Below, one piece after another: positions 498 through 18,693 of a DNA stretch of 64,000 bases. The DNA is from Xanthomonas sacchari (lineage in GTDB: Bacteria > Pseudomonadota > Gammaproteobacteria > Xanthomonadales > Xanthomonadaceae), in the NCBI RefSeq assembly GCF_040529065.1, contig NZ_CP132343.1, positions 2,170,001 to 2,234,000 on the forward strand. Direction: 5' to 3'. The translations under genes and the position numbers were made by a program. Position 1 is the first letter of the stretch; every line of letters starts with the position of its first letter. The notes under the pieces are model-generated. The model was not told where the DNA came from, did not search any database, and saw only the letters and a list, made by a program, of their open reading frames with translations.

Positions 498-503
498 GAG
501 GTC

Positions 504-560: not shown

Positions 561-630
561 GATCTCGCATACACCGAGCGCGTCTCTCCTGGCCGGTCCG
601 TCCGGCCTGCTTTCGGCCTTGTATTTTTTG

Positions 631-643
631 AGACGGTCGGTCT
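631..643 (+). promoter_or_regulatory. Probable AcuR/TetR operator
   Basis: The sequence AGACGGTCGGTCT has AGAC/GTCT inverted ends. It lies 11 bases before the regulator start and abuts a TAATAT stretch (643-648) that could be a -10 element. TetR regulators of the AcuR/NemR group usually bind AGACC/GGTCT-type palindromes upstream of their own operon, so autorepression of this gene and the downstream reductase is the natural reading. Confidence 0.5.
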
Positions 644-654
644 AATATTGGCGC

Positions 655-1293: not shown

Positions 1294-1329
1294 ATCGGCT
1301 TGCTTCCCTCTCTCATCCAAGGAGTGCTC

Positions 1330-2866: not shown

Positions 2867-3559
2867 TTGCGCGCCCAATGGAACATCCTTTGCGATTTTG
2901 ACGGTACCGTGTCCCTGCAGGACGTGACCGACAGCCTGCTCGAGCACCTCGGGCGCCCCGGTTGGCAGGCGCTGGAAGACGACTGGGTCGCCGGTCGGAT
3001 CGGCGCCCGCGAGTGCATGAGCAAGCAGGTCGCGCTGCTCGACGGCGACGTCGAGGCGCTGCACCGGGTGCTCGATGGCGTGCGGATCGATCCGGCCTTC
3101 GTGCGCTTCGTGGCGCTGGCCGAGCGCCTGGGCATCCCGCTGAGCATCGTCAGCGACGGGCTGGACTACGGCATCGCCCGCATCCTCGCCCGCCACGGCC
3201 TGCACCATCTGCCGATCATCGCCAACCGCCTGCTGCGCACCGATGCCGGCGAATGGCGCATGGCCTCGCCGCATGCGCGCCCGGACTGCCCCAGCGGCAC
3301 CTGCAAGTGCGCGGTGATGGCGCAACAGCCGCCCGAGCGCGCCACCTTGCTGATCGGCGACGGCCGCTCCGATTTCTGCCTGGCCGGCAAGGCCGACCTG
3401 GTGTTCGCCAAGGACGGGCTGCTGCGCCATTGCCGCGCCAACGGGATCGCCCATTGCGCGATCACCGGTTTCGACGACGCCATCGCCCTGCTGCCCGACC
3501 TGGCGGTGCCGGCGACCACCACCGTGTCCTTCCCGCTTCCCGTCACCCAACGAGCCTGA
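2867..3559 (+). CDS. MtnX-like HAD-IB phosphatase
   Basis: This is a haloacid dehalogenase phosphatase of about 230 residues. Motif I is CDFDGTVS near the N-terminus, the motif II serine is in SIVSDGLDYG, and motif IV is LLIGDGRSDFCLAG. A CPSGTCKC cluster in the middle is typical of MtnX-like proteins. The start is taken as TTG 2867, because GGAGAG lies just upstream and motif I must be close to the N-terminus. The ORF is open further upstream, but that extension has no domain. Only 5 bases separate it from the aminotransferase, so the two are co-transcribed. The substrate is unknown; a phosphorylated precursor of the aminotransferase product is my inference. Confidence 0.85.
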   Translation: MRAQWNILCDFDGTVSLQDVTDSLLEHLGRPGWQALEDDWVAGRIGARECMSKQVALLDGDVEALHRVLDGVRIDPAFVRFVALAERLGIPLSIVSDGLDYGIARILARHGLHHLPIIANRLLRTDAGEWRMASPHARPDCPSGTCKCAVMAQQPPERATLLIGDGRSDFCLAGKADLVFAKDGLLRHCRANGIAHCAITGFDDAIALLPDLAVPATTTVSFPLPVTQRA

Positions 3560-3564
3560 TCCCG

Positions 3565-5037
3565 ATGAACCGGAATGTTTCGCTTTCCTCGCTCGCACCG
3601 CTGCATGGCGATGCCGCGCCCGATCCGGAGGCGCTGCTGCGCACCGGTGCCGACCACCAGCGCGCGCTGAGCGATGCGCAGATGCTGGCCGACGAGGCCC
3701 AGTACTGCTCCTACGGCGACACCGTGCACTACAGCGAGCCGCCGCGCATCTTCGGCCGCTGCGACGGCAGCTACCTGTACGACACCGAGGAAGTGCCGTA
3801 CCTGGACCTGCAGATGTGGTACTCGGCGGTCAACTTCGGCTACGCCAATCCGCGCCTGAACCAGGCGCTGACCCGCCAGATCGAGACCCTGCCGCAGGTC
3901 GCCAGCCAGTACCTGCACCCGACCAAGATCGAGCTGGCCAAGACCATCGCGGTCGACGCCGAGCGCAAGTGGGGCCGCAAGGGCCGCGTGCACTTCAACG
4001 TCGGCGGCGCGCAGTCGGTGGAAGACTCGCTGAAGCTGGTGCGCAACGCCAGCGCCGGCAAGAGCCTGGTGTTCGCCTTCGAAGGCGGCTACCACGGCCG
4101 TACCCTCGGTGCTTCGGCGATCACTTCGTCGTACCGCTACCGCCGCCGCTTCGGTCATTTCGACCGCGCCCAGTTCATCGAATTCCCGTACCACTTCCGC
4201 GGCCCCAAGGGCATGTCCAAGGAAGAGTACGGCGAGCAGTGCGTGGCCAAGTTCGAGCGCCTGTTCGAGACCGAGTACAACGGCGTGTGGGATCCCAAGG
4301 CCGGGCAGTGCGAGTACGCGGCGTTCTACGTCGAGCCGATCCAGGGCACCGGCGGCTACGTGATTCCGCCGCCGAACTTCTTCACCGGCCTGAAGCGGGT
4401 GCTGGACAAGTACGGCATCCTGATGGTGGTGGACGAAATCCAGATGGGCTTCTTCCGCACCGGCAAGCTGTGGGCGATCGAGCATTTCGGCGTGACCCCG
4501 GACGTGCTGGTGTTCGGCAAGGCGCTGACCAACGGCCTCAATCCGCTGGCCGGCATCTGGGCGCGCGAGGAGCTGATCAACCCGACCGTGTTCCCGCCGG
4601 GTTCGACCCACTCCACCTTCGCCTCCAACCCGCTGGGCACCGCGGTCGGCCTGGAAACCATGCGCATGCTGGCCGAGACCGACTACGAGTCGATGGTCAT
4701 GGCCAAGGGCGCGCACTTCCTGGACGGCCTGCGCGACCTGCAGAAGCGTCACCCGGAAATCGGCGACGTCGACGGCCTGGGCCTGGCCCTGCGTGCGGAA
4801 ATCTGCCAGGCGGACGGCTTCACGCCGAACCGCAAGCTGCTCGACACCATGGTCGACATGGGCCTGGAAGGCGAGCTGCGCCACAACGGCAAGCGCATCG
4901 GCCTGATCCTGGACGTGGGCGGTTACTACAAGAACGTGATCACGCTGGCGCCGTCGCTGCACATCAGCCACGAAGAGATCGACCTGGGCCTGTCCTTGCT
5001 GGACCAGTTGCTGACCCGCGCCAAGCAGGTCGCATGA
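3565..5037 (+). CDS. Class III PLP-dependent aminotransferase
   Basis: This 490-residue protein is a full-length class III (ornithine/acetylornithine/lysine-epsilon type) aminotransferase. Seen: NVGGAQSVEDSLKLVR (phosphate-site region), EGGYHGRTLGAS, VEPIQGTGGY, the cofactor-ring aspartate in MVVDEIQMGF (D290) and the Schiff-base lysine in FGKALTNG (K319). It probably moves an amino group from an amino donor to an aldehyde or keto acid; the exact substrate cannot be read. It starts 5 bases after the HAD phosphatase gene and faces the convergent ketosynthase/ACP pair. That setting suggests a role in making an aminated lipid or acyl-amino product rather than in general amino-acid metabolism. 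Confidence 0.9.
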   Translation: MNRNVSLSSLAPLHGDAAPDPEALLRTGADHQRALSDAQMLADEAQYCSYGDTVHYSEPPRIFGRCDGSYLYDTEEVPYLDLQMWYSAVNFGYANPRLNQALTRQIETLPQVASQYLHPTKIELAKTIAVDAERKWGRKGRVHFNVGGAQSVEDSLKLVRNASAGKSLVFAFEGGYHGRTLGASAITSSYRYRRRFGHFDRAQFIEFPYHFRGPKGMSKEEYGEQCVAKFERLFETEYNGVWDPKAGQCEYAAFYVEPIQGTGGYVIPPPNFFTGLKRVLDKYGILMVVDEIQMGFFRTGKLWAIEHFGVTPDVLVFGKALTNGLNPLAGIWAREELINPTVFPPGSTHSTFASNPLGTAVGLETMRMLAETDYESMVMAKGAHFLDGLRDLQKRHPEIGDVDGLGLALRAEICQADGFTPNRKLLDTMVDMGLEGELRHNGKRIGLILDVGGYYKNVITLAPSLHISHEEIDLGLSLLDQLLTRAKQVA

Positions 5038-5041
5038 GCCG

Positions 5042-5080
5042 GGCGGGAGACGACGCGCGCGGTTCGCGTTGCCTCCCGCC
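5042..5080. terminator. Inverted repeat between convergent genes
   Basis: Arms GGCGGGAG (5042-5049) and CTCCCGCC (5073-5080) are perfectly complementary and lie in the 65-base gap between the convergent aminotransferase and ketosynthase genes. The 23-nt loop and missing T run make this a modest candidate for a bidirectional transcript end. Confidence 0.35.
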
Positions 5081-5102
5081 GTTGTCTGCGGCGGCGGGCG
5101 TT

Positions 5103-6341
5103 TCAGCCCGCCGCGCGCAGCGCGATCACCGCATTCAATCCGCCGAAGGCGAAGGAATTGCTCAGCACCGCCTGCACCTGGCGGGCGCGCGCCTGGTTGG
5201 GCACGTAGTCCAGGTCGCATTCGGGATCGGCATCGAGGAAGTTGGCCGTGGGCGGCACCACCTGCTCGCGCAGTGCGCCGATCGCCGCCACCAGTTCCAG
5301 CGCGCCGGCCGCGCCGAGCGCATGGCCGTGCACCGCCTTGGTCGAGCTGACCGCCAACGCCTCGGCGTGCGTCCCGAACACCTGCCGCAGCGCCTGGGTT
5401 TCGCAGCGATCATTGGCCTGCGTGCCGGTGCCGTGGGCGTTGATGTAGTCGATCTGTTGCGGCGCCAGGCCGGCGTCCTTCAGCGCCAGGCGCATCGCCG
5501 TGGCGGCGCCGTCGATGCTGGGCGCGACGATGTCGCCGGCATCGGAACTCATGCCGAATCCTGCCAGTTCCGCCAGCGGCAGCGCGCCGCGGGCGGCGGC
5601 GTGCTCGGCGCTTTCCAGCACGAACATCCCGGCGCCTTCGCCCAGCACCAGGCCGCTGCGCTGCGCGCAGAACGGCCGGCAGGTGTCGTCGCTGACCACC
5701 CGCATCGCTTCCCAGGCACGGATCAGCGGCAGGCTCAGGCAGGCTTCGCTGCCGCCGGCGATGGCCACGTCGGCCAGGCCATGGCGGACCATCAGCGCAG
5801 CCTGGGCGAAGGCGTGGTTGGCCGAGGCGCAGGCGCTGGACACGGCGAAGGCCGGGCCGCGCAGACCGAAGGCGATGCTGATCTGGCTGGCCGGGGCGTT
5901 GGCCATGCTGCGCACGATGGTCAGCGGATGCAGGCGTTCGGCCTGGTCGCGGTACAGCCGGCGCGATTGTTCGTCGCGGCTGAGTTCGGCGCCGACGCCG
6001 GTGCCGACCACCACCGCGCAGCGCGCGCCGAGCGCGGCATCGCCGTGCGGCAGGCCGGCCTGGGCGATCGCCTCGCGGGCGGCGACCAGCGCCATCTGGG
6101 TCATGCGGTCGAGCTGGCCGGGGGCGATGCCGCCGGTCTGCGTGGCGTCGGGCGCGAACCCCGGCAGGGTCGCGGCCTTGCGCATCTTCAACGTGCTGAG
6201 CGGATCGGGCGAGGGCAGGGCGGCGATGCCGCTGCGGCCCTCGCGCATCGCGCTCCACAGGGCCTCGGCGCCCAGGCCGAGCGCGCTGACCGCGCCCATG
6301 CCGGTGATGACGACGCGCCGCGCGTGCGGAGAGGCGCCCAT
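5103..6341 (-). CDS. Beta-ketoacyl-[ACP] synthase, FabF-like
   Basis: This is a 412-residue KAS I/II condensing enzyme. The Cys-His-His triad is complete: C171 in VSSACASANH, H303 in NAHGTGTQAN, and H340 in STKAVHGHALGAAG. It should condense an acyl thioester with malonyl-ACP. It starts 6 bases after a dedicated acyl carrier protein gene, and no fabG, fabZ, fabD or primary fatty-acid gene is nearby. It is therefore not the housekeeping fabF and more likely serves a specialised lipid or polyketide-like product. Chain length and starter cannot be read from sequence alone. Confidence 0.92.
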   Translation of the reverse strand: MGASPHARRVVITGMGAVSALGLGAEALWSAMREGRSGIAALPSPDPLSTLKMRKAATLPGFAPDATQTGGIAPGQLDRMTQMALVAAREAIAQAGLPHGDAALGARCAVVVGTGVGAELSRDEQSRRLYRDQAERLHPLTIVRSMANAPASQISIAFGLRGPAFAVSSACASANHAFAQAALMVRHGLADVAIAGGSEACLSLPLIRAWEAMRVVSDDTCRPFCAQRSGLVLGEGAGMFVLESAEHAAARGALPLAELAGFGMSSDAGDIVAPSIDGAATAMRLALKDAGLAPQQIDYINAHGTGTQANDRCETQALRQVFGTHAEALAVSSTKAVHGHALGAAGALELVAAIGALREQVVPPTANFLDADPECDLDYVPNQARARQVQAVLSNSFAFGGLNAVIALRAAG

Positions 6342-6347
6342 GGCGCG

Positions 6348-6623
6348 TCAGTGCGCCGGTTGCGCCGCGCCGGCCGCCGCCTTGGCCGCCAGCGCGTCCT
6401 CGACCGCCTGCACCAGCTTGCCGAGCGAACCGTCGTCCAGGTTCGGGTCGCGCTGCGGGAAGGTGATGTCGAAGTGTTCTTCGATGTCGAACAGGATTTC
6501 GATGGCCTCGAGCGAATCCACGCCCAGGTCTTGCAGCTTGGCATCGGGGGTCAGGCGCGCCGGGTCGATCTCGCCATGCTTGGCGACGATGCTGTGGATT
6601 TGCGACTCGATGGACGGGGTCAT
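6348..6623 (-). CDS. Acyl carrier protein
   Basis: This 91-residue protein has the phosphopantetheine attachment motif LGVDSLEAIEI with the serine at position 37, and an acidic four-helix pattern (IEILFDIEEHFDI). The C-terminal tail is Ala-rich and slightly longer than in housekeeping AcpP. It is the first gene of the minus-strand ACP-ketosynthase pair, and its ATG (6621-6623) faces the divergent acyltransferase gene across a 112-base shared promoter region. It likely carries the growing or finished acyl chain for the enzymes encoded around it. Confidence 0.92.
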   Translation of the reverse strand: MTPSIESQIHSIVAKHGEIDPARLTPDAKLQDLGVDSLEAIEILFDIEEHFDITFPQRDPNLDDGSLGKLVQAVEDALAAKAAAGAAQPAH

Positions 6624-6735
6624 GGCAGTGCTCCGCGAAATGAAGGGCCACCGCGCGGCGCCCGCCGCCGGTGGATCGCACGCTGCGGCCTGGGCCGCAG
6701 CATCCATTCTCCACGCTAGACGATCAATCTTGCAG

Positions 6736-7803
6736 ATGCCTTTCGTCAACCAACTCGAGCCGCAGGCCTTGCAGCGGCAGTTCCTGCAGCACCCGCCAGC
6801 CGGTTTCCTGATCCAGCCCCTGGAGCACGGGGTGCCGGCCTTCGAGGCCGATTTCGACCTGCTCACCACCGCCGAACCCGCGCTGCGCGCGAAGGTGGCG
6901 CGGCTGCCGCTGCAGCGGCTGTGGCAGCGCCTGCTGCGGCCGCGTACCAGCTTCGTCGGCAGCACCGTCAGCGAATACGCCTGGCTGCCGCGCGCGGCCG
7001 ATCCGGCGCAATTGCCGCGGCAGTGGCGTACGCAACTGGGCCGGCGCCGCGCGCTGATGATCGTCAAGGACGTGCCGCAGCGTTCGCCGTTGCTCGACGA
7101 CGCCGACAACGCCTGGGCGCAGGCCTTCCTGGACGCCTGCGAGCGCAACGGCTACGTGCTGCTGCGCGGGCAGGCGCTGGCCTGGGTGCCGATCGACTTC
7201 GCTTCCACCGACGACTACCTGGCGCGGCTCTCGCGCGGGCGCCGGCGCAACATCCGCCGCAAGCTGCGCTCGCGCGCCGACCTGCAGATCGAGGTGCTGC
7301 CGACCGGCCCGGCCTTTGCCGATCCGGCGCTGCGCGCGCACTGCTATGCGCTGTACCAGGAGGTGTATGCGCAGAGCGAGATCCATTTCGACCTGCTCAC
7401 CGCGCCGTTCTTCGATGCGCTGCTGACCGACGCCGACTCGGGCGGGCAGGTGTTCGTGTACCGGCACCAGGGCCGCATCATCGGCTGGAACCTGTGCTAC
7501 GTGCACGAAGGCCGGCTGCTGGACAAGTACATCGGCCTGCATTACCCGGACGCGCGCGACCACAACCTGTACGCGCTGAGCTGGATCGAGAACCTCGACT
7601 ACGCCTGCCGCCACGGCCTGACTGCCTATGTCGCCGGCTGGACCGATCCGGAAGTGAAGGCCCAGCTCGGCGCCAGCTTCACCTACACCTGGCATGCGGT
7701 GTACCTGCGCAATCCGCTGCTGCGCGCGGTGCTGCGCCGATTGCGGCCGCTGTTCGAATCCGACGACGTCGGGCCGGTCGCCGATGCCGCCGAGGAGGAC
7801 TGA
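6736..7803 (+). CDS. FemAB/BioF2-like GNAT-fold acyl or aminoacyl transferase
   Basis: This 355-residue protein resembles the BioF2-like/FemAB-like acetyltransferases (Acetyltransf_6 or FemAB_like type). The evidence is the basic segment RLSRGRRRNIRRKLRSR, a VFVYRHQGRIIGWNLCYVHEGRLLDKYIGL core and a late YALSWIENLDYACRHGL helix. I chose ATG 6736 although the frame is open much further upstream, because the upstream part is only the antisense of the ACP and ketosynthase genes. Such enzymes transfer acyl or aminoacyl groups to amines, peptidoglycan or polysaccharide. Divergent pairing with an ACP gene makes an ACP-dependent N-acylation plausible. It ends 1 base before the next gene's start. Confidence 0.75.
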   Translation: MPFVNQLEPQALQRQFLQHPPAGFLIQPLEHGVPAFEADFDLLTTAEPALRAKVARLPLQRLWQRLLRPRTSFVGSTVSEYAWLPRAADPAQLPRQWRTQLGRRRALMIVKDVPQRSPLLDDADNAWAQAFLDACERNGYVLLRGQALAWVPIDFASTDDYLARLSRGRRRNIRRKLRSRADLQIEVLPTGPAFADPALRAHCYALYQEVYAQSEIHFDLLTAPFFDALLTDADSGGQVFVYRHQGRIIGWNLCYVHEGRLLDKYIGLHYPDARDHNLYALSWIENLDYACRHGLTAYVAGWTDPEVKAQLGASFTYTWHAVYLRNPLLRAVLRRLRPLFESDDVGPVADAAEED

Positions 7804-7804
7804 G

Positions 7805-8683
7805 ATGCGCACTCCGGTTTTGCTCGATCTCGATGATTCGCTGGGCGCCGTACCCGATGCCGTGCGCCTGCCGCTGCGCGACTGGTGCGACGGCCTGCGC
7901 TTCGCCTGCTCGATGGCGCGGCTGCGCCGCTTCGGCGCGGCGCTGGAGCAGGCGCTGCCGGCGCGGTACGGCACCGTGCTGCTGGGCAGCGGCGATTTCC
8001 ATCACCTGAGCCTGCCGTTGATCGTGCGCCTGGCGCAGCGCGCGCAGGCGCCGTTGCGGGTGGTGGTGTTCGACAACCATCCGGACAACATGCGCTTCCC
8101 GTTCGGCGTGCACTGCGGCTCGTGGGTGCGCCGCATCGCCGCGCTGCCGCAGGTGGCGCAGGTCGAGGTGGCCGGCATCACCTCCGGCGACGTCGGCCCC
8201 GGCCATGCCTGGGAAAACCATCTGCTGCCGCTGTACCGCGGCAAGTTGCGCTACTGGTGCAGCGGCGTGGACGTGGGCTGGGCGCGGCGGTTGGGCCTGG
8301 GCCGGGCGGTGCGCGGCTTCGACAGCGTAAGCGCGCTGAGCGATGCGTTCGTCGAGCACCTGCGGCGCACGCCGATGCCGACCTATCTGTCGCTGGACAA
8401 GGACGTGCTGGATCCGCAGGACGTGCGCACCAACTGGGACCAGGGCCAGCTGCGCGTGCCGCAGTTGCTGCAGGCGATCGACGCGCTGCGCGGGCAGGTG
8501 TGCGGCAGCGACATCACCGGCGAAGTCTCGCTGGCCCATTACCCGCAATGGTGGAAGCGCAAGCTGGCGGCGCTGGATGCGCAGCCCGAACTGTCGCCGG
8601 CGGACCTGTCGGCGTGGCAGGCGCAGCAGCATGCGTTGAACCTGCGGCTGCTGGCGGCGCTGGATGCGGCCAGCGTCGGTTAG
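7805..8683 (+). CDS. Arginase/ureohydrolase-fold protein
   Basis: This 292-residue protein carries the ureohydrolase metal-ligand pattern in order. GSGDFHHLS (H66/H67) replaces the usual GGDHS, FDNHPDN gives D90, H92 and D94, and SLDKDVLDP gives D198 and D200; a late DITGEVS supplies E240. A binuclear manganese site is therefore likely. Family members hydrolyse arginine, agmatine, guanidino acids or N-acetylated polyamines (the last in related deacetylase folds). Sequence around the site differs from true arginases and agmatinases, so the substrate is unknown. The gene follows the FemAB-like gene with a 1-base gap, so the two products probably act in one step sequence. Confidence 0.75.
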   Translation: MRTPVLLDLDDSLGAVPDAVRLPLRDWCDGLRFACSMARLRRFGAALEQALPARYGTVLLGSGDFHHLSLPLIVRLAQRAQAPLRVVVFDNHPDNMRFPFGVHCGSWVRRIAALPQVAQVEVAGITSGDVGPGHAWENHLLPLYRGKLRYWCSGVDVGWARRLGLGRAVRGFDSVSALSDAFVEHLRRTPMPTYLSLDKDVLDPQDVRTNWDQGQLRVPQLLQAIDALRGQVCGSDITGEVSLAHYPQWWKRKLAALDAQPELSPADLSAWQAQQHALNLRLLAALDAASVG

Positions 8684-8696
8684 CGCAGCGCCATTC

Positions 8697-8763
8697 TGTA
8701 GGAGCGGCTTCAGCCGCGAGAGCATTACCGGTAACGCATCTCGCGGCTGAAACCGCTCCTACA
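8697..8763. repeat. Xanthomonas-type intergenic palindrome, copy A
   Basis: Two 24-base arms (8697-8720 and 8740-8763) are inverted copies with one mismatch, with core GGAGCGGCTTCAGCCGCGA. They lie between the convergent arginase-fold and DegT genes. A second near-identical element is at 63016-63081 and a diverged relative is at 47607-47687. It probably folds in RNA and could serve as a transcript end. Confidence 0.8.
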
Positions 8764-8830
8764 GGATGCTTCCTGTCGTTATGAGCGGCACATTTTCACC
8801 GCGACGCTGGCGAAGTCGCCCGTCGCCCGA

Positions 8831-10084
8831 TCAAGCGCTCGGCGCAGCGGCGGGCACCAGGTCGACATCCAGCGGCGCCGGCCCGACCGCGGTGGCGCAG
8901 GCCGCCTGCAGCGTGGCCACGATGGTCTCGAAGCGCGCCTCGTCCAGCCAGGGGCTGTTGCTGATGCTCAGGCAGCGCGCGGCGAAGTCGCTGGCGTTGG
9001 GCATCGGCGTGCGTTCGACGATGCCGTCCAGGTAGTCGTAGTCGGGCAGGGCATGCACGAACGGCACCGCCACGCCGAGCCCGCGCGGCCACAGCGCGGC
9101 CAGCACCGATTCGCGGGCGGCCGCATCGGGCAGCAGCACCATCAGGATCGGCCAGCTGCCCTGGGCGCCCGGGGTATCGGCGATCACGCTCAGGCCGGGG
9201 ATGCTGGCCAGGCGCGCGCTGCGGCGCCGGCCCTGTTCGCGAATCTGGGCAAGAAATGCCGGCCAGCGCGCGCTGGCGCGCACGCCCACGCCTTCGCGCC
9301 AGGCGCCGACCGCATGCTGGGCGATCGCGGTGCCGAAGCGGTCGCCGGCCGCACCGACGCGGTCGCCGCGGCGCAGTGCACGCCGCACCGGTGCGCCGTA
9401 CGCCCAGCGCAGCGGTTGCGGCCGATAGAGCGCGGCATAGCCGAGCAGCTCCAGGCTGCGGCGCAGTTCCCAGCGCCAGTCGCGCTGGCCCAGGCGCGCG
9501 GCGGTGTCGGCCAGGCTGCGCTGCAGCGGCGCATGCCGCGACATCAGCAGCCCGCCTTCGTACAGCGTGAGCCCCTTACCGGCGGCCAGGCTGCAGAAGC
9601 CGATGTCGCCGCCCAGGCCGGCGGGGCGGCCGTCGGCATGCACGCCGCCCAGCGCCTGCGCCGCGTCCTCGATCAGCAAGGCGCCGCAGCCCTCGGCTGC
9701 GCGGCGCAGCGGCGCCAGGTCGGTCAGGCGTCCGCCGAGGTGGGTGGCGATGATCGCCAGGGTGTCGCCGCCGCAGCGTTGCGCCAGTTGCACCGGGTCC
9801 AGCTCCAGCGAGCCGGGCAGCAGATCGCAAAGCACCAGTTGCAGGCCGCAATGCGCCACCGCCAGCGCCACCAGCGGGCAGGTATAGGCAGACACCACGA
9901 CCTGCCGGCGCAGGCTGGCCGCTGTCAGGGTACGCAGCGCCACGATCAGCGCGGCGGTGCCGGAGCAGGTCAGCAGCGCCTGCGGCAGGCCGAGCGCGCT
10001 GGCCAGGCGCGTGCGCGGGCGGCCCGGCCACAGGTCGCGCCACTGCAGCGGCAGGCCGGCGGTCGGCGGCACCTCAATGCGCAT
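8831..10084 (-). CDS. DegT/DnrJ/EryC1/StrS (ArnB-fold) aminotransferase
   Basis: This 417-residue PLP enzyme belongs to the sugar-aminotransferase fold. Seen: LLTCSGTAALIVALRTL at the N-terminus, the cofactor aspartate in LLIEDAAQALGG (D140), and the Schiff-base lysine in SLAAGKGLTLYEGG (K170). Family members typically aminate nucleotide-linked keto sugars, but some act on other keto substrates. Its start overlaps the stop of a small transporter gene by 11 bases, at the downstream end of a hydrolase, transporter, transporter, aminotransferase run. ArnB also sits with ArnE/ArnF-type transporters, which makes this arrangement suggestive. The substrate is not determined. Confidence 0.85.
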   Translation of the reverse strand: MRIEVPPTAGLPLQWRDLWPGRPRTRLASALGLPQALLTCSGTAALIVALRTLTAASLRRQVVVSAYTCPLVALAVAHCGLQLVLCDLLPGSLELDPVQLAQRCGGDTLAIIATHLGGRLTDLAPLRRAAEGCGALLIEDAAQALGGVHADGRPAGLGGDIGFCSLAAGKGLTLYEGGLLMSRHAPLQRSLADTAARLGQRDWRWELRRSLELLGYAALYRPQPLRWAYGAPVRRALRRGDRVGAAGDRFGTAIAQHAVGAWREGVGVRASARWPAFLAQIREQGRRRSARLASIPGLSVIADTPGAQGSWPILMVLLPDAAARESVLAALWPRGLGVAVPFVHALPDYDYLDGIVERTPMPNASDFAARCLSISNSPWLDEARFETIVATLQAACATAVGPAPLDVDLVPAAAPSA

Positions 10085-10472
10085 CGGCGGGATCCGCGCG
10101 TTCGCCGATCGCCAGGCAGACGATGCCGCCGACGATCAGTGCCGCGCCCAGCGCCTGCAGCAGGCCGATGTGTTCGTTGAACCACCACGCCGACAGCAGC
10201 ATCACGCTGACCACCTCCAGGTGCGAGGCGGCGAAGGCCGGGCCGATCGGTGCGTGCTCGAGCAGCTTCATCCAGGTGAAGAATGCGCCGACGTAGCCCA
10301 GCAACGCGGCGTACAGCCAGGGGCTGCCGAGCAGGCGCAGCACCCAGGCCAGTTCGGCCTGCGGCGGGAAGGCGTGGGTGCCGGCCAGCTTGAAGCCGAT
10401 CTGGGCCAGGGTGTCGAAGCTCAGCAGCAGGGCGAAGCCCACCGCATAGCGATGCAGCGACGGCCGGCTCAT
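10074..10472 (-). CDS. EamA/SMR-type small transporter subunit 2
   Basis: This is a 132-residue, four-helix membrane protein of SMR/half-EamA size, with helices around YAVGFALLLSFDTLAQIGF, PWLYAALLGYVGAFFTW, VVSVMLLSAWW and LGAALIVGGIVCLAIG. A conserved-looking PIGPAFAASH segment sits after helix 2. The ATG at 10472 overlaps the previous gene's stop by 4 bases (ATGA). With its neighbour it forms two unequal small subunits in tandem, like ArnE/ArnF, the heteromeric flippase for undecaprenyl-phosphate-linked aminoarabinose. A flippase for a lipid-linked intermediate is my inference. Confidence 0.8.
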   Translation of the reverse strand: MSRPSLHRYAVGFALLLSFDTLAQIGFKLAGTHAFPPQAELAWVLRLLGSPWLYAALLGYVGAFFTWMKLLEHAPIGPAFAASHLEVVSVMLLSAWWFNEHIGLLQALGAALIVGGIVCLAIGERADPADAH

Positions 10473-10831
10473 GAGCCCAGCCCCACCACGGCCACGCCGG
10501 CGCTGACCAGGCAGATGCCGGCCACCTGCATGCGCCCGAGGCGTTCGCCGAACAGCCAGCGCCCGGCCAGCATGATCGCCACGATGTTGATCGAGCCCAG
10601 CAGCACGCCGCGGCCCAGCGGCACCAGCGACAGGAACGCGGTCCAGGCGAGGAACTCGAACACGTAGCAGGCCACGCCGAACCACAGCTGCGGCTGCCGC
10701 GCCATATGCTGCCAGCGCGCCATGCCGGTGCCCTGCGGGTGGCTGGCCACGTACTTGAAGGCCAATTGGCCGGCGGTGTCCAAGGCCACCGTCGCCAGCC
10801 AGATCGCCACCACCGAGCCGGTCATCGCCAT
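10469..10831 (-). CDS. EamA/SMR-type small transporter subunit 1
   Basis: This is a 120-residue, four-helix membrane protein: VVAIWLATVALDTAGQLAFK, LWFGVACYVFEFLAWTAFLS, GVLLGSINIVAIML and VAGICLVSAGVAVVGLGS. The pattern PLGRGVLLGS matches the second-helix region of SMR/EamA proteins. The start is ATG 10831, which shares one base with the hydrolase stop; a second ATG lies two codons later. It is translationally coupled on both sides. Together with the next gene it probably makes a heterodimeric small transporter. Confidence 0.8.
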   Translation of the reverse strand: MAMTGSVVAIWLATVALDTAGQLAFKYVASHPQGTGMARWQHMARQPQLWFGVACYVFEFLAWTAFLSLVPLGRGVLLGSINIVAIMLAGRWLFGERLGRMQVAGICLVSAGVAVVGLGS

Positions 10832-11658
10832 CAGGCGGCGGCCCGCTGCGGCGCGGACAGGGCGGCGAAGAACTGCGCCAGGCGCGCGCCGAGCACGCGG
10901 CGTTCGCGGTCCAGGGTGATCATGTGGTAGCTGTCGTGCAGCAGCAGCAGTTCCGTCGGCCCGGACACGTTGGCGATCACCAGCCGCGCGTTGCGCAGGT
11001 CGGCGATGTCGTCCTCGGCCGCGTGCGCGACCAGGCACGGCGCGACCACCTTGGGCAGGTTGCGGCGCACGTCGCGTGCGAGCAGGTACATCTCGGCCAG
11101 CGCGTGCCAGGGGTTGCCGGGCAGGCCGGCGGCGCTGCTGTCGCCGCCGAGCATGGCGCTGCTGACCTGGGCGCGGATGCGCTCGTCGCGCAGGCCATAC
11201 GGCGGCTCTTCCAGGAACATGCGGCGCTTGCCGATGCCCAGCCGCTTGAACCACGGCAGCAGGAACGCCAGGCGCGCGCGCTTGGGGATGTTCCAGCCGT
11301 CGTAGCGGAAGGTGGCGCCGAGCACGCCGACCCCGTCCACCCACTCCGGACGCTGCTGCGCCAGGCGCAGCGCCAGCACCGCGCCCATCGACAGCCCGGC
11401 CACGAACAGACGGTCGACCTGCGGGCGCACGCGCGCGGCGGCGGCCTCGACGCTGGCGTACCAGTCGTGCCAGCTGGTGGCCAGCAGGTCGTCCTCGTCG
11501 CCGCAGTGGCCGGCCAGTTGCACGCCGTAGACGCTGAAGCCTTCGCGGTTCAGGCTCTTGCCGAGCAGGCGCATCTCGCTGGGCGTGCCGGTCAGACCAT
11601 GGATCAGCAGCACCGCGTTGCGGCCGCCTTCGAAGTGGAACTCGGCAGATTGGATCAT
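10831..11658 (-). CDS. Alpha/beta hydrolase (carboxylesterase/lipase type)
   Basis: This 275-residue protein has the alpha/beta-hydrolase fold. Oxyanion region is LLIHGLTGTPSEM, the nucleophile elbow is VAGLSMGAV (S90), the acid is in HAAEDDIADL and the catalytic histidine is in HDSYHMITLD. It resembles Est30-type carboxylesterases in length and motif spacing. It has no signal peptide, so it acts in the cytoplasm. It is the first gene of the run hydrolase, transporter, transporter, DegT aminotransferase and lies 92 bases beyond the exporter operon on the same strand. It could release a product from its carrier or trim an acyl ester; this is inference. Confidence 0.85.
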   Translation of the reverse strand: MIQSAEFHFEGGRNAVLLIHGLTGTPSEMRLLGKSLNREGFSVYGVQLAGHCGDEDDLLATSWHDWYASVEAAAARVRPQVDRLFVAGLSMGAVLALRLAQQRPEWVDGVGVLGATFRYDGWNIPKRARLAFLLPWFKRLGIGKRRMFLEEPPYGLRDERIRAQVSSAMLGGDSSAAGLPGNPWHALAEMYLLARDVRRNLPKVVAPCLVAHAAEDDIADLRNARLVIANVSGPTELLLLHDSYHMITLDRERRVLGARLAQFFAALSAPQRAAA

Positions 11659-11750
11659 GTGAATGGGCGCGGCTGCGCAGTCTCGGCAATCCGTGCAGGG
11701 TCGCCGCTGCGCGTTTCAGCAGCCTTTCGCCGCGGCGGCGGTGTGCAGGG

Positions 11751-12653
11751 TCAGCGCTTGGTCGTGGCCGGGTTGCGGAAGCGGACCAGCACGCGCTGGC
11801 CCAGGCGCAGGGTCGAGGGCTGGGTGAAGGCCAGCACGCAGGCCACGCTGCGGTCGTTGCCGGCGGGCGTGGCGTCGTCGTGCAACTGGGTGGGGCCGTA
11901 GGCCGGCGCCAGCCAGCGCACCACCGCCTCGCCGAGCACGGTCTGGCGGCCGTCGTCGCTGATCACTTCGGCGGCCATGCCCGGGGTGACGCTGCCGGCA
12001 TAGCTTTCGTTCAATTCGGCGCGGACCAGGCGCGGCGCGTCCGGCAGCAGGGTCAACAGCGGCGCGTTGGCCTCGGTGCGCGCGCCGACCGCCGCCGACA
12101 GCTGCAGCACGCGTCCGGCCACCGGCGCCTGCAGCCGGTACTGCGCGCGCTGCAGCTCGGCCGCGCGCACCTGCGCGTCTGCCAAGGCCGCATCGCTGCG
12201 TGCGGTGTCCAGCGCGTCCATCAGGCTCTGCACCGCGTCGCTGGCGTCGTCGGCGCTCTGGCCGTCGCCGGCACCCAGGCGCGCGGCCTCGGCCAGCCGT
12301 CGTTGCTTCTGCTGGGCGCTTTGCAGGCGCTGCTGCAGTTGCTTCAGGTGGGTGGCCGCGGCCTGGGCGCGGGTGCGGGCGATGTCCAGGTCGACCGCGG
12401 CGGCGCGGTCGTCGCCGGCGACCAGCACCGCGCCTTTCTGCACCGCGTCGCCCTCGTGCACCGGCACCTCGCGCAGGGTCGCGGCGACCGGCAGGCCGAG
12501 CTTGAGCACGCCGCCCTCCACGTCGATGCGGCCGCGCGCCACCGCCAGGTAGGCCGGGGGGGCGGCGGCCGCCGCCGGGGCCGGCGTGCGGTCCGATGGC
12601 GCGCATGCGGCCAGCAGCAGGCTCAGCAGGGGCGCGGCGGCGAACGCTTTCAT
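11751..12653 (-). CDS. HlyD/DevB-type periplasmic adaptor lipoprotein
   Basis: This is a 300-residue membrane-fusion protein with a lipobox ending LLLAAC (Cys17). A barrel-sandwich half (LREVPVHEGDAVQKGAVLV) is followed by a coiled-coil hairpin (about residues 85-180, rich in Q/A/R heptads) and a second lipoyl half (YRLQAPVAGRVLQLSAAVGA). It should bridge the inner-membrane ABC transporter to the TolC-like protein of the same operon. The ATG at 12653 overlaps the ATPase gene stop by 4 bases, and upstream in-frame codons only read antisense-like sequence. It is the last gene of the six-gene exporter operon. Confidence 0.9.
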   Translation of the reverse strand: MKAFAAAPLLSLLLAACAPSDRTPAPAAAAAPPAYLAVARGRIDVEGGVLKLGLPVAATLREVPVHEGDAVQKGAVLVAGDDRAAAVDLDIARTRAQAAATHLKQLQQRLQSAQQKQRRLAEAARLGAGDGQSADDASDAVQSLMDALDTARSDAALADAQVRAAELQRAQYRLQAPVAGRVLQLSAAVGARTEANAPLLTLLPDAPRLVRAELNESYAGSVTPGMAAEVISDDGRQTVLGEAVVRWLAPAYGPTQLHDDATPAGNDRSVACVLAFTQPSTLRLGQRVLVRFRNPATTKR

Positions 12654-13414
12654 GGTGCGGGATTCCGTGAGGGCAGGGGCGAGGGCGGCGCGTTCACGCG
12701 GCGGTCGTCGAGGATGCGGCCGTCCTCCATCGACAGCACGCGGTCGGCGTGGCGGATCAGGCGCGGGTCGTGGCTCACGCACAGCACCATGGTGTTATGG
12801 CGGCGCGCGATGCGGTGCAGCAGGTCGATCACGATCTGGCCGTTGCCGGCGTCCAGCGCGCTGGTCGGTTCGTCGGCGAACAGCAGTGCAGGGTGCTTGG
12901 CCAGGGCGCGGGCGATCGCCACGCGCTGCTTCTCGCCGCCGGACAGTTCGGCCGGGCGCAGATGCTGGCGGTGGGCGATGCCGACCTCGGCCAGCGCCTC
13001 TTCGGCGCGGCTGCGCACCTCGGCGGGGGCCAGGCCCATGTACTGCAGCGGCAGCCGTACCTGGTCCAGCGCGCACAGCGCCGGGAACAGGTTGAAGCCC
13101 TGGAAGATGAAACCGGTGTGGCGCAGCCGGAACTGCTCCAGCGCGGTGGCGCCGAGTGCGCCCAGTTCCTCGCCCAGCGCCAGTACCTGGCCGGCGTCGG
13201 CGCGCTGCAGGCCGCTGAGGATCGACAGCAGGGTGCTCTTGCCGCAGCCGGACGGGCCGGAGATCAGGGTCAGCTCGCCCGGCCACACCTGCAGTTCCAC
13301 GTCGCGCAGCACCGGCGTGCGCAGGCTGCCGGAAACGAAGCTCTTGCACAGCCCGCTGCCGCGCAGGGTGGCGGCGGCCGGGTGCAGCGCGGCGGCGGCG
13401 ACGATCCGGCTCAT
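12650..13414 (-). CDS. ABC transporter ATPase, MacB/LolD/DevA type
   Basis: This 254-residue nucleotide-binding protein has Walker A SGPSGCGKST, Q-loop FIFQGFNLFP, signature LSGGEKQR, Walker B ALLFADEPTSALD and H-loop VSHD. It powers the FtsX-type permease encoded immediately upstream, whose stop it overlaps by 4 bases. Proteins of this class drive mechanotransmission or export from the periplasmic side through an adaptor and TolC, without a substrate channel of their own. The first 20 residues are a poorly conserved extension, so a slightly later start is possible. Confidence 0.92.
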   Translation of the reverse strand: MSRIVAAAALHPAAATLRGSGLCKSFVSGSLRTPVLRDVELQVWPGELTLISGPSGCGKSTLLSILSGLQRADAGQVLALGEELGALGATALEQFRLRHTGFIFQGFNLFPALCALDQVRLPLQYMGLAPAEVRSRAEEALAEVGIAHRQHLRPAELSGGEKQRVAIARALAKHPALLFADEPTSALDAGNGQIVIDLLHRIARRHNTMVLCVSHDPRLIRHADRVLSMEDGRILDDRRVNAPPSPLPSRNPAP

Positions 13415-14544
13415 CGCAGCAGCAACGCCGGATCGGCGCGGCGCAGCCCGCGCAGCGCGGCCAGGGCCGAGACCACAGTCAGCAGCATCACCGCGCACAC
13501 GCACAGGCCCCAGCCGCTGGCGTTGAACGCCACCGGCACGTCGTGCGCGCGGGCCAGCGCGACCAGCGCCGCACCCAGCGCGCTGGCGCCGATCAGGCCC
13601 AGCGCGCCGACCCAGGCGGCCTGTTCCAGCACCACCCAGCGCAGGTTGCGCATGCTCACGCCCAGCGCGTTGAGCGTGGCGTACTCGCGCGCGGCGCCGA
13701 GCACGGTGCCGAGCAGGGTCTGGCTGGTGATGGCCACGCCGACCAGCAGCACGATGCCGCCCAGGAACAGCACGCCGGAGCCGGCACCGGTATCGAACAT
13801 CCAGAACAGGATGCTGCGCCGCGCGAAATCGTCGGCGCTCCAGGCTTCCACGCGCGGCCGCGTGACCGCGCTGTCGATCGCCTGCGCCACCGCCTGCGGG
13901 TCGGCGCCGGGGCGCAGCCTGGCCACCATGTAGGTCGGCCAGTCCGGATGCGCGGTGTCGGTGTTGAGCGCGCGCGCGGTGTCCAGCGAGGCCAGTACGT
14001 TGACTCCGCCCAGCGCGCGCAGGCCGCGGCCGACCCCGATCACCCGCACGCGGTGGCCGTTGATGCGCGCGCTGCTGCCGATGTCGACGCCGAGCTTGTC
14101 CAGTTCCGCGCGGTCCACCACCACGGTGTCGGGCTCGCGCAGCGCCGCACGCAGCGCCGGGCTGAGCAGACGCGAGAACATCAGCCCGCCGTCGCGGGTG
14201 TCGATGCCGGAGATGTACACCGACACCGCGCCGGTGTCGCCGGGGCCGCGCCAGTCGCCGTCGAACCAGATGAACGGCTCGACCTGCGCCACGCGCGGGT
14301 CCAGGTAGAGCGGCGCGGCCGCGTCCGGATCGATGGCGCGGCCCTGGTCCACGCTCTGCGTGCCGGGATAGCCCAGCCACAGGTCGGCGTCGGAGCCGGA
14401 GACGTACACGCTGGCGCTGCCGAAGATGCCCAGCACCAGCGCGGTCTGCAGCAGCAGCAACAGGCTGGCGAAGCCCACCGACACCACCACCGGCAGGAAG
14501 CGGCGCCACTCGTAGCGCAGGGTCTGGCGGGCCAGCGCGACCAT
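13411..14544 (-). CDS. FtsX-family ABC permease (MacB/DevC type)
   Basis: This 377-residue protein has one N-terminal membrane helix (LPVVVSVGFASLLLLLQTAL), a periplasmic MacB-like core of about 210 residues, and three C-terminal helices ending in VSALAALRGLRRADP. That is the standard FtsX/DevC topology, and it lacks the fused ATPase of MacB itself. Periplasmic landmarks are SDADLWLGYPG and VFDRxE-like VVVDRAELDKLGV. It overlaps the ATPase gene by 4 bases and the outer-membrane factor gene by 1 base. DevBCA-type systems export glycolipids with TolC, which is relevant given the lipid-type genes next door; the cargo here is unproven. Confidence 0.88.
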   Translation of the reverse strand: MVALARQTLRYEWRRFLPVVVSVGFASLLLLLQTALVLGIFGSASVYVSGSDADLWLGYPGTQSVDQGRAIDPDAAAPLYLDPRVAQVEPFIWFDGDWRGPGDTGAVSVYISGIDTRDGGLMFSRLLSPALRAALREPDTVVVDRAELDKLGVDIGSSARINGHRVRVIGVGRGLRALGGVNVLASLDTARALNTDTAHPDWPTYMVARLRPGADPQAVAQAIDSAVTRPRVEAWSADDFARRSILFWMFDTGAGSGVLFLGGIVLLVGVAITSQTLLGTVLGAAREYATLNALGVSMRNLRWVVLEQAAWVGALGLIGASALGAALVALARAHDVPVAFNASGWGLCVCAVMLLTVVSALAALRGLRRADPALLLR

Positions 14545-15974
14545 CAGGGCTGCGCGCCTTCGCGCGCGTTGCCGGTACCGGCGCCGGGAATCGGCGCGGT
14601 GGCGCTGCCCAGCGCGGTGTGCAGGGCGACGTAGGCCAGGTCGCGCTGGCGCTGCGCTTCCAGCAGTTCCAGCGTCGCCTGGTCGCGCGCGGCCTGCTGC
14701 GTGGCCACGTCCAGGTCGCTGCCCAGGCCCAGCCGCCGGCGCTGCTGCGCCGCCTCGGCGACCTGCTGCTGCGCCTGCAGCACCTGCTGCTCGGTCTCGA
14801 CGTTGCGCCGCTGCTGTTCCAGCGCGGTCAGCGCGTCCTCGACCTCGTTGACCGCCGACAGCACGGTCTGCCGGTAGGCGAGGGTGGCCGCTTCCAGCAG
14901 GTCGCCGCGCGCCTTGGCCCTGGCCTGACGGATGCCCCAGTCGAACAGCGGGATGTCGATCACCGGGCCGAACGAGGCGATGCCGTGGGTGGTGGTGCGG
15001 CGGTGGCTCAGCAGGCTGGTCGACCAGCGGATCGCGCCGCCCAGGCCGATGCTGCCGTAGCGGTCGGCGCGGGCGATGCCCAGGGCGCCGGCGGCGCTGA
15101 TCACCTCGGCCTCGCGCGCGGCGATGTCCGGGCGTCGCCGCAGCAGGTCGGCCGGCACGCTGTCGACGGCGGCGATCTGCAATTGTCCCGGCGCGCTGCT
15201 GGCCGCGGCCGTGCTCCACGCCGGGTCGGGCGCGTCGCGGCCCAGCAGCACCGCCAGGCGCCGCGCCGCCGCCGCCGCGGCGTCGCGCGGTTCGTTCACC
15301 GCACTCTGCGCCTGCAGCACCGCCGCCTGCGCCTGCGCCGCGGTGGCCGGCGCGGCCAGATGCAGGTCGACCAGGGTCTGCTGCAGGCTGGCCTGGCGCT
15401 GGCGCGCGTCGGCGATGTCCTGCAGCAGGCGTTCGGCCTGCTGCGCGTGGCGCAGGTCGATCCAGTTGTGGGTCACGTCGGAGATCGTCGCCGCGCGCAC
15501 CTGCGCCAGGTTGGCCTGGGCGCTCTGCAGGTCGCCGCGGGCCACGCGGTTGGTGGCTTCGCCGCGACCGAACAGCGGCAGCTCCCACTCCGAATCGACG
15601 CCCACGACCAGGAACGAGGCGCTGGCGTCCGGATCGATCGGATCCTCGGTGCGCGCACGCAGTTGCGGCCGCAGGGTCGCGTCGGCGACCGCGTCCAGCC
15701 GCCGCGCCGCGCGCAGCCGTGCCAGCGCCTGGCCGACCTCGAGATCGTCCTGCAGCGCCTGCGCGACCAGCGCATCGAGCTGCGGATCGTGGAAATCCTG
15801 CCACCAGGCACTGCCCGGCGGGCGCGGCGCAGCCGCCTGCGGCGTCGCGCTGCTCCAGTGCGCGGGCAGCGACGGCTGGCGCAGATCGGGAATGGGCTTG
15901 CTGGCGCAGCCGCCCAGCGCCAGCGCGCTGGCCAGCGCCAGTGCGCCGGCGCAGCGAAGACGGTGGCGGCTCAT
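14544..15974 (-). CDS. TolC-like outer-membrane efflux factor lipoprotein (NodT/OprM family)
   Basis: This 476-residue protein has a lipobox ALALGGC (Cys23). Two outer-membrane-efflux repeats follow, with the usual landmarks WWQDFHDPQLDALVAQAL, PADLLRRRPDIAAREAEV and SLGxxVDIPLFDWG-like GPVIDIPLFDWGIRQ. It forms the outer-membrane duct of the tripartite exporter encoded by the downstream permease, ATPase and adaptor genes. Its ATG overlaps the histidine-kinase stop by 4 bases, so sensor and exporter are translated from one message. Confidence 0.92.
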   Translation of the reverse strand: MSRHRLRCAGALALASALALGGCASKPIPDLRQPSLPAHWSSATPQAAAPRPPGSAWWQDFHDPQLDALVAQALQDDLEVGQALARLRAARRLDAVADATLRPQLRARTEDPIDPDASASFLVVGVDSEWELPLFGRGEATNRVARGDLQSAQANLAQVRAATISDVTHNWIDLRHAQQAERLLQDIADARQRQASLQQTLVDLHLAAPATAAQAQAAVLQAQSAVNEPRDAAAAAARRLAVLLGRDAPDPAWSTAAASSAPGQLQIAAVDSVPADLLRRRPDIAAREAEVISAAGALGIARADRYGSIGLGGAIRWSTSLLSHRRTTTHGIASFGPVIDIPLFDWGIRQARAKARGDLLEAATLAYRQTVLSAVNEVEDALTALEQQRRNVETEQQVLQAQQQVAEAAQQRRRLGLGSDLDVATQQAARDQATLELLEAQRQRDLAYVALHTALGSATAPIPGAGTGNAREGAQP

Positions 15975-17392
15975 GCGCGCGGCTCCGCGCCGGCCGGCAG
16001 GTCCAGTTCCGCGCGCAGGCCGCCCAGTGCCGAGCGCCGGTAGCGCAGCGTCGCGTGGTGGCGGGCGGCGATGTTGGCGACGATGGCCAGGCCCAGGCCG
16101 GTGCCGCCTTCGGGCGCGTCCGGCGCGCGGAAGAAGCGCTCGCCCAGGCGCGGCAGCAGGGCCTCGTCGATGCCGCTGCCGGCATCGTCCACGGCCAGGC
16201 GCACGTACAGCGGATCGCGGCGCAGGCTGACCGTGACCATGCGGCCGGCGGCATGCCGGAAGGCATTGTCCAGCAGGTTGTCGAGCAGTTCGCGCAGCGC
16301 ATAGGTGTCGGCGGCCACCCAGGCGGGCGCGTCGTCGTCGCCGGCGTCGTAGCCCAGGTCCACGCCGGCGTGCAGCGCGTCGGGGATGCGGTCGGACAGG
16401 GCCTGCGGCAGCCATTGCGCCAGGTCCAGCGGCAGCAGCTCGCGGATGCTCTCGCGCGGCGCCTGGGTGCGGGTCAGCGCCAGCAACTGGGTGGAGGTGC
16501 GGGTGGCGCGGTCCGTCAACTGACGGATGTGCTGCAGCGCCTGCGCGGTGTCTTCCGGGCGCTGGCCGGCCTGGGCGCGCTGCACGTGCATGCTCAGCCC
16601 GGCCAGCGGCGTGCGCAACTGGTGCGCGGCATCGGCCAGGAAGCGTTCCTGCAGCGCCATCATGTGCTTGAGCCGGCCGAGCAGGCCGTCGATGGCCTGG
16701 GTCAGCGGCAGGATCTCCACCGGGATGTCCGGGCCGGACACCGGGCTGAGGTCGCGCTGGCTGTCGTCGAGCCGGCGCACCGCCGGCTCCAGCATGCGCA
16801 GGCCGACGCGCACGCCATGCCACACCAGCACCAGCAGCGAGCAGGTGAGCAGCAGTTCGGTCGGCAGCATCAGCACCAGGATCTCGCGGGCGCGGCGGTG
16901 GCGGTCGTCCAGGGTCTCGGCCACCGACACGGTGAGCCAGTCGCCCGGCTCCAGCGCCGAGGGCAGCAGCAGGCTGGCCACGCGCACCGGCACGCCGTTG
17001 TCCATGCGGTCGTCGTACAGCATCACTCGGCCGATCTCGGCCGGATCCGGGTGCTTGGGAATCGGCTGGGTACTGCCGCTGATCACCCCGTGGCGGCGGC
17101 TGTCGAGCTTGAAGAACACCCGGCCGTCGCTGCTGTACTCCAGCAGCTGCCGCGCCTGCAGGGTCAGCGGCATGCGCTCGCCGGGGTCGTTGACCGCGTT
17201 CGCCAGGCCCTGCGTGTCCTCCTTCAGGTCCATGTCGTGGACGTGATTGGTGTACTTGAGCATCAGCAGGTAGAACAGCGACGACACCACCAGCATCAGC
17301 AGCACGGTCGGGATCAGCAGGAACGCCAGCAATCGCTGGCGCAGGCTGGGATGGCGGTAGGCCGGCGCGTGCGCGGCGGTGGTCGCGCTCAC
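15971..17392 (-). CDS. Sensor histidine kinase (TctE/QseC type)
   Basis: This is a 473-residue two-helix kinase. TM1 is about residues 20-45, followed by a periplasmic sensor of about 125 residues, TM2 about 170-192, HisKA with H257 in LADAAHQLRTPL, and HATPase with N-box ELLDNLLDNAFRHA, DDAGSGI and GGTGLGLAI. The periplasmic part looks like the 2CSK_N sensor of TctE-type kinases. I chose GTG 17392 because it overlaps the regulator stop (GTGA). It likely senses a periplasmic signal and switches on the exporter genes that follow it. Confidence 0.9.
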   Translation of the reverse strand: MSATTAAHAPAYRHPSLRQRLLAFLLIPTVLLMLVVSSLFYLLMLKYTNHVHDMDLKEDTQGLANAVNDPGERMPLTLQARQLLEYSSDGRVFFKLDSRRHGVISGSTQPIPKHPDPAEIGRVMLYDDRMDNGVPVRVASLLLPSALEPGDWLTVSVAETLDDRHRRAREILVLMLPTELLLTCSLLVLVWHGVRVGLRMLEPAVRRLDDSQRDLSPVSGPDIPVEILPLTQAIDGLLGRLKHMMALQERFLADAAHQLRTPLAGLSMHVQRAQAGQRPEDTAQALQHIRQLTDRATRTSTQLLALTRTQAPRESIRELLPLDLAQWLPQALSDRIPDALHAGVDLGYDAGDDDAPAWVAADTYALRELLDNLLDNAFRHAAGRMVTVSLRRDPLYVRLAVDDAGSGIDEALLPRLGERFFRAPDAPEGGTGLGLAIVANIAARHHATLRYRRSALGGLRAELDLPAGAEPRA

Positions 17393-18689: not shown

Positions 18690-18693
18690 CCCC

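Follow-up and report, generated by a model that had tools for sequence, protein, structure and literature searches.

A window of 64,000 nucleotides from the genome of Xanthomonas sacchari (one contig of 4.96 Mb) carries a cluster of about 16 adjoining genes; all coordinates below are positions within this window. Ten of the genes were noted first, and six more encode an exporter and a two-component system. The ten genes form a real joint system, seen in their linkage and export context across many genomes, and we tentatively propose that it makes and exports an amine-bearing, probably amphiphilic molecule. The features are as follows.

2867..3559, plus strand: HAD, MtnX-like HAD-IB phosphatase with a TTG start (PF12710, 56.4 bits; TIGR01489, 94.9 against a cutoff of 81.55)
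3565..5037, plus strand: AT3, class III pyridoxal phosphate (PLP) aminotransferase/racemase-type enzyme, K319 (PF00202, 256.8 bits)
5103..6341, minus strand: KS, FabF-like ketosynthase of its own clade (PF00109/PF02801)
6348..6623, minus strand: ACP, acyl carrier protein, S37 (PF00550, 42.2 bits)
6736..7803, plus strand: FEM, FemAB-like/GNAT_6 transferase of 355 residues (PF04339, 52.1 bits; PF13480, 44.5 bits)
7805..8683, plus strand: ARG, arginase-fold metallohydrolase
8692..8768, unstranded: inverted repeat, arms of 30 nt, where the ARG and DegT genes converge
8831..10084, minus strand: DegT, DegT-family PLP aminotransferase, K170 (PF01041, 125 bits)
10074..10472, minus strand: SMR1, EamA/SMR-type small transporter subunit (PF00892, 41.9 bits, with 10074 to 10424 scanned)
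10469..10831, minus strand: SMR2, EamA/SMR-type small transporter subunit (PF00892, 30 bits)
10831..11658, minus strand: HYD, alpha/beta hydrolase, monoacylglycerol-lipase/Est30-like, S90 (PF12146, 80.3 bits)
11751..12653, minus strand: HlyD-type periplasmic adaptor with a lipobox-like N terminus, as read from the sequence (PF13437, 43.8 bits)
12650..13414, minus strand: ABC ATPase, best NCBIfam models DevA then LolD (219.6 and 203.3 bits, both below cutoff)
13411..14544, minus strand: FtsX/MacB_PCD permease (PF02687, PF12704), sole NCBIfam match DevC (67.7 bits, below cutoff)
14544..15974, minus strand: NodT/TolC-type outer-membrane channel (TIGR01845, 223.2 against a cutoff of 210)
15971..17392, minus strand: sensor histidine kinase with a 2CSK_N domain (PF08521, 87.9 bits)
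17389..18096, minus strand: OmpR-family response regulator, best models TctD then PmrA (230 and 223 bits, below cutoffs)

The ten open reading frames first noted are present, intact and as originally described, as confirmed by their coordinates and by annotated X. sacchari R1, where the corresponding genes have the same lengths (HAD 693, AT3 1473, KS 1239, ACP 276, FemAB/GNAT 1068, arginase 879, DegT 1254, EamA 399 and 363, and hydrolase 828 bp), the gene order matches and the aminotransferase is 99.6% identical to AT3. The R1 cluster lies on a 508-kb record labelled as a plasmid (NZ_CP010410.1), which also carries hemN, unlike that of the window genome, which lies on a single chromosome-size contig. 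Compared with three genomes of the same genus, the ratio of nonsynonymous to synonymous substitution rates was 0.03–0.43 for the twelve genes computed. The active-site residues named from the sequence were also right in position and invariant among the extracted orthologs: D10 and D12 of HAD in 85/85, K319 of AT3 in 98/98, C171, H303 and H340 of KS (the Cys-His-His catalytic set of beta-ketoacyl synthases) in 103/103, S37 of ACP in 99/99, K170 of DegT in 97/97 and S90 of HYD in 111/111, in counts that include the window, omit sequences whose length deviates and take some genomes twice through overlapping fetches.

The original prediction ended the block at 11658; the genes for the exporter and the two-component system, which follow on the same strand at 11751-18096, escaped it. 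It also divided the genes into four transcription units with short gaps or overlaps. The gaps are indeed short (5 bp between HAD and AT3, 6 bp between KS and ACP, 1 bp between FEM and ARG), but the hydrolase-SMR-SMR-DegT genes are not a unit of their own; they are the downstream end of a ten-gene minus-strand run that extends from the response regulator (18096) to DegT (8831) in the order response regulator, sensor kinase, TolC-type channel, FtsX-type permease, ABC ATPase, HlyD adaptor, HYD, SMR2, SMR1, DegT, with junctions overlapping by 1–11 bp except for 92 bp before HYD. On the other side, we place the start of the cluster at HAD, because its upstream neighbors, TetR and dehydrogenase (ADH) genes, were found at ortholog level in just 1 of 60 fetched loci (with a 24% ADH match in one more), a control in which short loci could not show these neighbors. 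The arms of the inverted repeat at 8692-8768 are 93% complementary, and the repeat is probably a REP-like (repetitive extragenic palindromic) element or a bidirectional terminator. Far from the cluster, 57701-61732 appears to hold a putative receptor/FecR/sigma-factor type regulatory trio, judged from N termini only.

An arginase-like alignment scan of the genome collection (tblastn, E up to 1e-3) gave at least 546 relatives of ARG, of which the best 80 were kept. These are the closest relatives and no random sample, and some of their genomes are common to the sixty loci described below; among them are Comamonas, Delftia, Variovorax, Pigmentiphaga, Herminiimonas, Xylophilus and Salinisphaera. 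All ten genes lay within 10 kb in 30 of the 64 fully flanked loci, and the eight genes other than KS and ACP were together in 39. FEM was found within 10 kb of ARG in 64/64, followed by DegT, SMR1 and SMR2 (55 each), HYD (54), KS and ACP (48 each), AT3 (47), HAD (45), the FtsX-type permease (40) and the HlyD adaptor (39), which adjoins HYD in many relatives. KS and ACP were either both present or both absent in 64/64, and so were DegT and the SMR pair.

The sixty loci come from two families of the order, that of the window and another one (including Rhodanobacter, Dyella and Fulvimonas). At least 72 of 299 genomes of the order matched, counting the own genome, and 60 of the 72 places were fetched. 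In-frame tblastn detected FEM in 60/60, and the set was kept despite inversions and moved blocks. Across 198 family genomes, ARG was found in 19 and DegT in 18, all within the ARG set, the sole ARG genome lacking DegT being a 320-contig assembly that is 91% complete (G906); AT3 was found in 25, covering all 19. ARG occurred in 8 of the 9 own-genus genomes shown, with 159 unmatched family genomes unlisted, in 3 of 369 genomes of a class-wide sample (own genome among them) and in 12 of 150 of a Comamonas-centred family sample; AT3 occurred in 21 of 299 genomes of a phylum sample including the own one, the other 20 at 55–82% identity. When DegT was absent from the fetched locus, it was found elsewhere in 12/12 genomes with close FEM and ARG (three at 10–18 kb) and in 0/5 genomes without them, one of which (G890) has diverged FEM and ARG. 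AT3 was likewise present elsewhere in 8 of 10 genomes whose fetched locus lacked it and was not found by genome search in the other two (G269 and G053). The joint pathway first proposed for the ten genes gains support from this pattern, in which the set is rearranged yet retained and missing parts often lie elsewhere in the same genome.

We fetched five of the six family genomes with AT3 and without ARG (G905 was left out), and three of these carry HAD-AT3 only. Of the other two, L221 has the exporter, HYD, the SMR pair, ACP, KS, AT3 and HAD with FEM, ARG and DegT absent in 20 kb, and L222 has a diverged ARG-SMR-HYD-FEM-SMR-ACP-KS set adjoining AT3-HAD. Further fetched neighborhoods add HAD-AT3-HYD with KS/ACP, with cyclopropane-fatty-acid (CFA) synthase or with ARG-SMR-FEM. 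Plasmids of Rhizobium and Agrobacterium carry a divergent HAD-AT3-arginase-EamA-hydrolase-GNAT-EamA version, with KS, ACP and DegT not found within 25 kb; the Agrobacterium version also has a TolC/permease/ATPase/adaptor set, and that of Rhizobium acidisoli adds genes annotated as desaturase, CFA synthase and MipA/OmpV. A Bartonella plasmid from bat faeces has AT3-FEM-ARG as its only cluster genes (L258:11956-15428 and 15437-17959). We propose that HAD, AT3, HYD, the SMR pair and the exporter make up a base module, and that FEM and ARG would be a tailoring module to which DegT is added in the close version.

Several other genes were seen beside these loci. In Bartonella, an MBOAT gene, DltB-like with a score under the cutoff, comes after AT3-FEM-ARG. 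A 194-residue protein with no NCBIfam match lies directly after AT3 in L222:8736-9320, and similar reading frames occur in L223 and L224, which are HAD-AT3 genomes. CFA-synthase-like or so annotated genes adjoin the cluster at L142:10939-12252, L264:4494-5714 and L259:17904-19241, in beta- and alphaproteobacteria and in one other lineage of the proteobacteria; the two that were scanned fall below the NCBIfam cutoff. A family without NCBIfam match, which we take to resemble MipA/OmpV, is present in 34 loci (L108:2809-3591 and 33 others). Cyanophycin synthetase genes were seen in two neighborhoods only: inside the Pigmentiphaga cluster (L158:10821-13442 and 16013-18295), which also has an NCBI-annotated "cyanophycin metabolism-associated ABC transporter", and, in one genome from the family of the window, next to HAD-AT3 (L225:4412-7210). 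L158:13472-15643, judged by its N terminus alone, and L225:7450-9288, which scores below cutoff, look like second copies.

The original prediction had KS and ACP extend acyl chains, and stated that their grouping with the primary fatty-acid enzymes would argue against a joint pathway. KS scored 421.6 bits against the fabF equivalog cutoff of 493.75, while FabF of the own genome scored 656.5; it passed the cutoff of the broader PRK07314 subfamily (409.5 against 387). In a FastTree phylogeny with a midpoint root, printed without branch support values, the 20 cluster KSs formed one clade apart from housekeeping FabF. Primary fatty-acid synthesis was therefore rejected on the score and the separate clade, and KS proved distinct from housekeeping FabF, in support of the original reading. 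A second KS of the own genome (G000_358) is the long-branch sister of the cluster KS clade in this tree. On the other hand, KS and ACP were not found at ortholog level in 7 of the 9 genomes searched genome-wide, and acyl extension is for this reason not supported as a defining step. Weak ACP matches away from the cluster were found in G232 (40% identity) and G665 (33%, with one stop in frame), and the betaproteobacterial locus L232 has a partial KS, 75% identical, at its edge. In G665 (Variovorax), a 45%-identical KS (C3:806164-807345) lies beside the weak ACP match, and this off-cluster pair (C3:806164-807578) is possibly a diverged partner pair or part of another pathway.

The nearest solved relatives of AT3 belong to class III and carry the names 4-aminobutyrate aminotransferase or alanine/serine racemase; phospholyase, racemase and serinol-phosphate aminotransferase are candidate activities that no analysis told apart. 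HYD matched the monoacylglycerol lipase 4lhe at an E of 6.8e-28. A hydropathy scan gave four transmembrane-like windows in SMR2 and one in SMR1, so that a four-helix topology of SMR1 is not supported; FEM showed none.

FEM had been likened to FemAB/BioF2-type enzymes, which acylate amines. Its AlphaFold model (pLDDT, the predicted local distance difference test score, of 91.4) had MprF, Sba18/Sbb17 and FemX/FemA as top matches in a fold search (Foldseek/VIA), and a sequence search of solved structures gave no match. Up to an E of 1, its only Pfam matches were PF04339 and PF13480, with no DUF2156. Judged by fold similarity, FEM looks more like the aminoacyl-tRNA-dependent transferases than like the acyl-CoA enzymes.

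ARG has the arginase fold and keeps all six metal (Mn) ligands, which places it in the ureohydrolase superfamily, and it reaches no equivalog cutoff. Its own signature is GSGD[FY]HH / DNHPD / DKD / NWDQG. Of the arginase motif DxDxxD, the third Asp is kept in only 13 of 137 close ARG sequences, and the NWDQG loop stands in place of the substrate loop. Position 240 is acidic in 144/144 and may or may not align with the Glu by which arginase binds guanidinium.

The exporter has the components of a MacB-superfamily tripartite system, namely a HlyD adaptor, an ABC ATPase, an FtsX/MacB_PCD permease and an outer-membrane channel. Taking all this together, we propose a dedicated and regulated system that synthesises an aminoacylated molecule with an amine, probably an amphiphile, and exports it toward the outer surface, a reading that stands a good chance of being right without yet being probable and whose chemistry we infer. 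AT3 and HAD would turn a phosphorylated precursor into a small amine or amino-alcohol. A private KS/ACP would supply a special acyl chain in the Lysobacterales lineages that have it, and housekeeping acyl groups would serve elsewhere. FEM would couple an amino acid from aminoacyl-tRNA to the amine or to a lipid, and ARG, as a two-metal hydrolase, might trim the product of FEM, for example by taking off a guanidino or comparable C-N group. DegT would then add or exchange a further amino group, HYD would remove an acyl group or edit, the SMR pair would flip the product, and the adaptor-ABC-FtsX-channel pump would move it outward under two-component control. We read the product as amphiphilic because DevBCA and LolCDE carry glycolipids and lipoproteins, respectively (PMC5985334), and lipid-modifying partners recur. 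Several lineages do without KS and ACP, and this makes the idea of acyl extension weaker. The original prediction had said that genes found separately in relatives would argue against a joint pathway, and some are indeed separate, with HAD-AT3 apart from the other cluster genes in three genomes.

That KS/ACP make a keto-acyl unit of a secreted small molecule, antibiotic-like or a signal, which is released by the hydrolase, aminated and exported by the SMR pair and a MacB-type pump, seems doubtful to us. The distinct KS clade, the two PLP enzymes, the possible releasing hydrolase, the pump itself and a patchy distribution typical of specialised metabolism (ARG in 19/198 family genomes) all suit such a product. 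However, AT3 stays 72–81% identical in the Comamonas, Delftia, Variovorax and Pigmentiphaga loci, and four genomes tested there have no KS ortholog; its substrate is for this reason unlikely to be the KS product, and the accompanying CFA synthase and desaturase genes speak for a lipid. We consider it improbable that the cluster modifies a lipid cationically in the manner of MprF against antimicrobial peptides, with FEM aminoacylating the lipid, the SMR pair as its flippase and PmrAB/TctDE-like induction. The MprF soluble domain is indeed among the top fold matches of FEM, PmrA is the second-best model of the response regulator and MipA/OmpV is annotated beside the Rhizobium acidisoli cluster, but FEM has no DUF2156 match, and the best model of the regulator is TctD, which like PmrA stays below cutoff.

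A role in guanidine or arginine metabolism, in which ARG would hydrolyse guanidino compounds and the SMR pair would be Gdx-type guanidinium exporters, could be suggested by the ureohydrolase fold near the guanidinases, the SMR/EamA pair and the cyanophycin synthetase beside two cluster versions, and is nevertheless very improbable. The third Asp and the substrate loop of ARG differ as described, FEM accompanies ARG in every flanked locus, and KS, ACP, FEM, DegT and the exporter would be left unexplained. Furthermore, none of the four RNA-family matches up to an E of 1 in window positions 1-19000 is a riboswitch, of guanidine or otherwise; all stay below the gathering score, the best being a miRNA family at the 8692-8768 inverted repeat, and no guanidine riboswitch or other known RNA was found at gathering score in six relatives. 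That unrelated metabolic genes became neighbors by chance in this genome is scarcely credible, even with the four transcription units, the versions that miss some genes and HAD-AT3 standing alone, since the set recurs, rearranged, in alpha-, beta- and gammaproteobacteria and the phylogenetic profiles match, while the control neighbors TetR/ADH are not conserved.

A bolder form of the proposed synthesis-and-export system, which we hold to be rather unlikely, is an undescribed class of outer-surface aminolipid across the proteobacteria. FEM, as a stand-alone enzyme, would aminoacylate an AT3/HAD-derived amine from aminoacyl-tRNA, a new hydrolase of the arginase fold would trim it, the SMR pair would flip it and a DevBCA-like pump would export it; the system would be modular, also found on Rhizobium/Agrobacterium plasmids and having a private KS/ACP in many Lysobacterales. 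As first suggested, our searches matched no known pathway, and a description of the cluster was not found in the titles and abstract starts of the open-licence PubMed Central literature, which does not show its absence from print. With at least 546 places encoding an ARG relative, the pathway would be common and apparently undescribed, and the set is found again and again among bacteria of soil and plants. If the product is an aminolipid of the surface or an amphiphile that is secreted, the envelope would gain a new component or metabolism a new class of products, and three orphan groups would be assigned functions: a ureohydrolase clade, a FemAB-like clade and an SMR pair.

Among known systems, ArnB-ArnE-ArnF of lipid A modification with 4-amino-4-deoxy-L-arabinose (L-Ara4N) also has a DegT aminotransferase adjoining two small SMR-type proteins, and the original prediction drew this analogy. 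It failed: DegT scored 43.6 against 631 bits for ArnB, the SMR subunits 26.6 against 92 and 29.8 against 99 for ArnE/ArnF (20–30 against 92–99 overall), no ArnA/C/D/T-type gene was recognised in the cluster, and Arn-type modification was rejected on these scores. The serinol route of RtxA, a dihydroxyacetone-phosphate aminotransferase, in which transamination and dephosphorylation give an amino-alcohol (PMC3222319), is a possible counterpart of AT3 and HAD by analogy alone, without sequence comparison. DevBCA-HgdD, the heterocyst glycolipid exporter, and LolCDE have, as here, a separate adaptor, ATPase and FtsX-type permease with a TolC-type channel. The cluster components nevertheless stay below the cutoffs of DevA (219.6 against 295.8), DevB (36.5 against 129) and DevC (67.7 against 290.35), the adaptor matches other families of adaptors better than DevB, and adaptor and channel both have N termini that read as lipobox-like. 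FEM shares the fold of MprF/FemABX and of Sba18/Sbb17, whose structure was solved with streptothrisamine, at 9–16% identity, and it belongs to Pfam FemAB_like/Acetyltransf_6; MprF differs in having DUF2156 and a membrane flippase domain, neither of which FEM has by Pfam and hydropathy. Finally, ARG shares the fold and the metal ligands of the arginase/agmatinase superfamily and differs in having a signature of its own.

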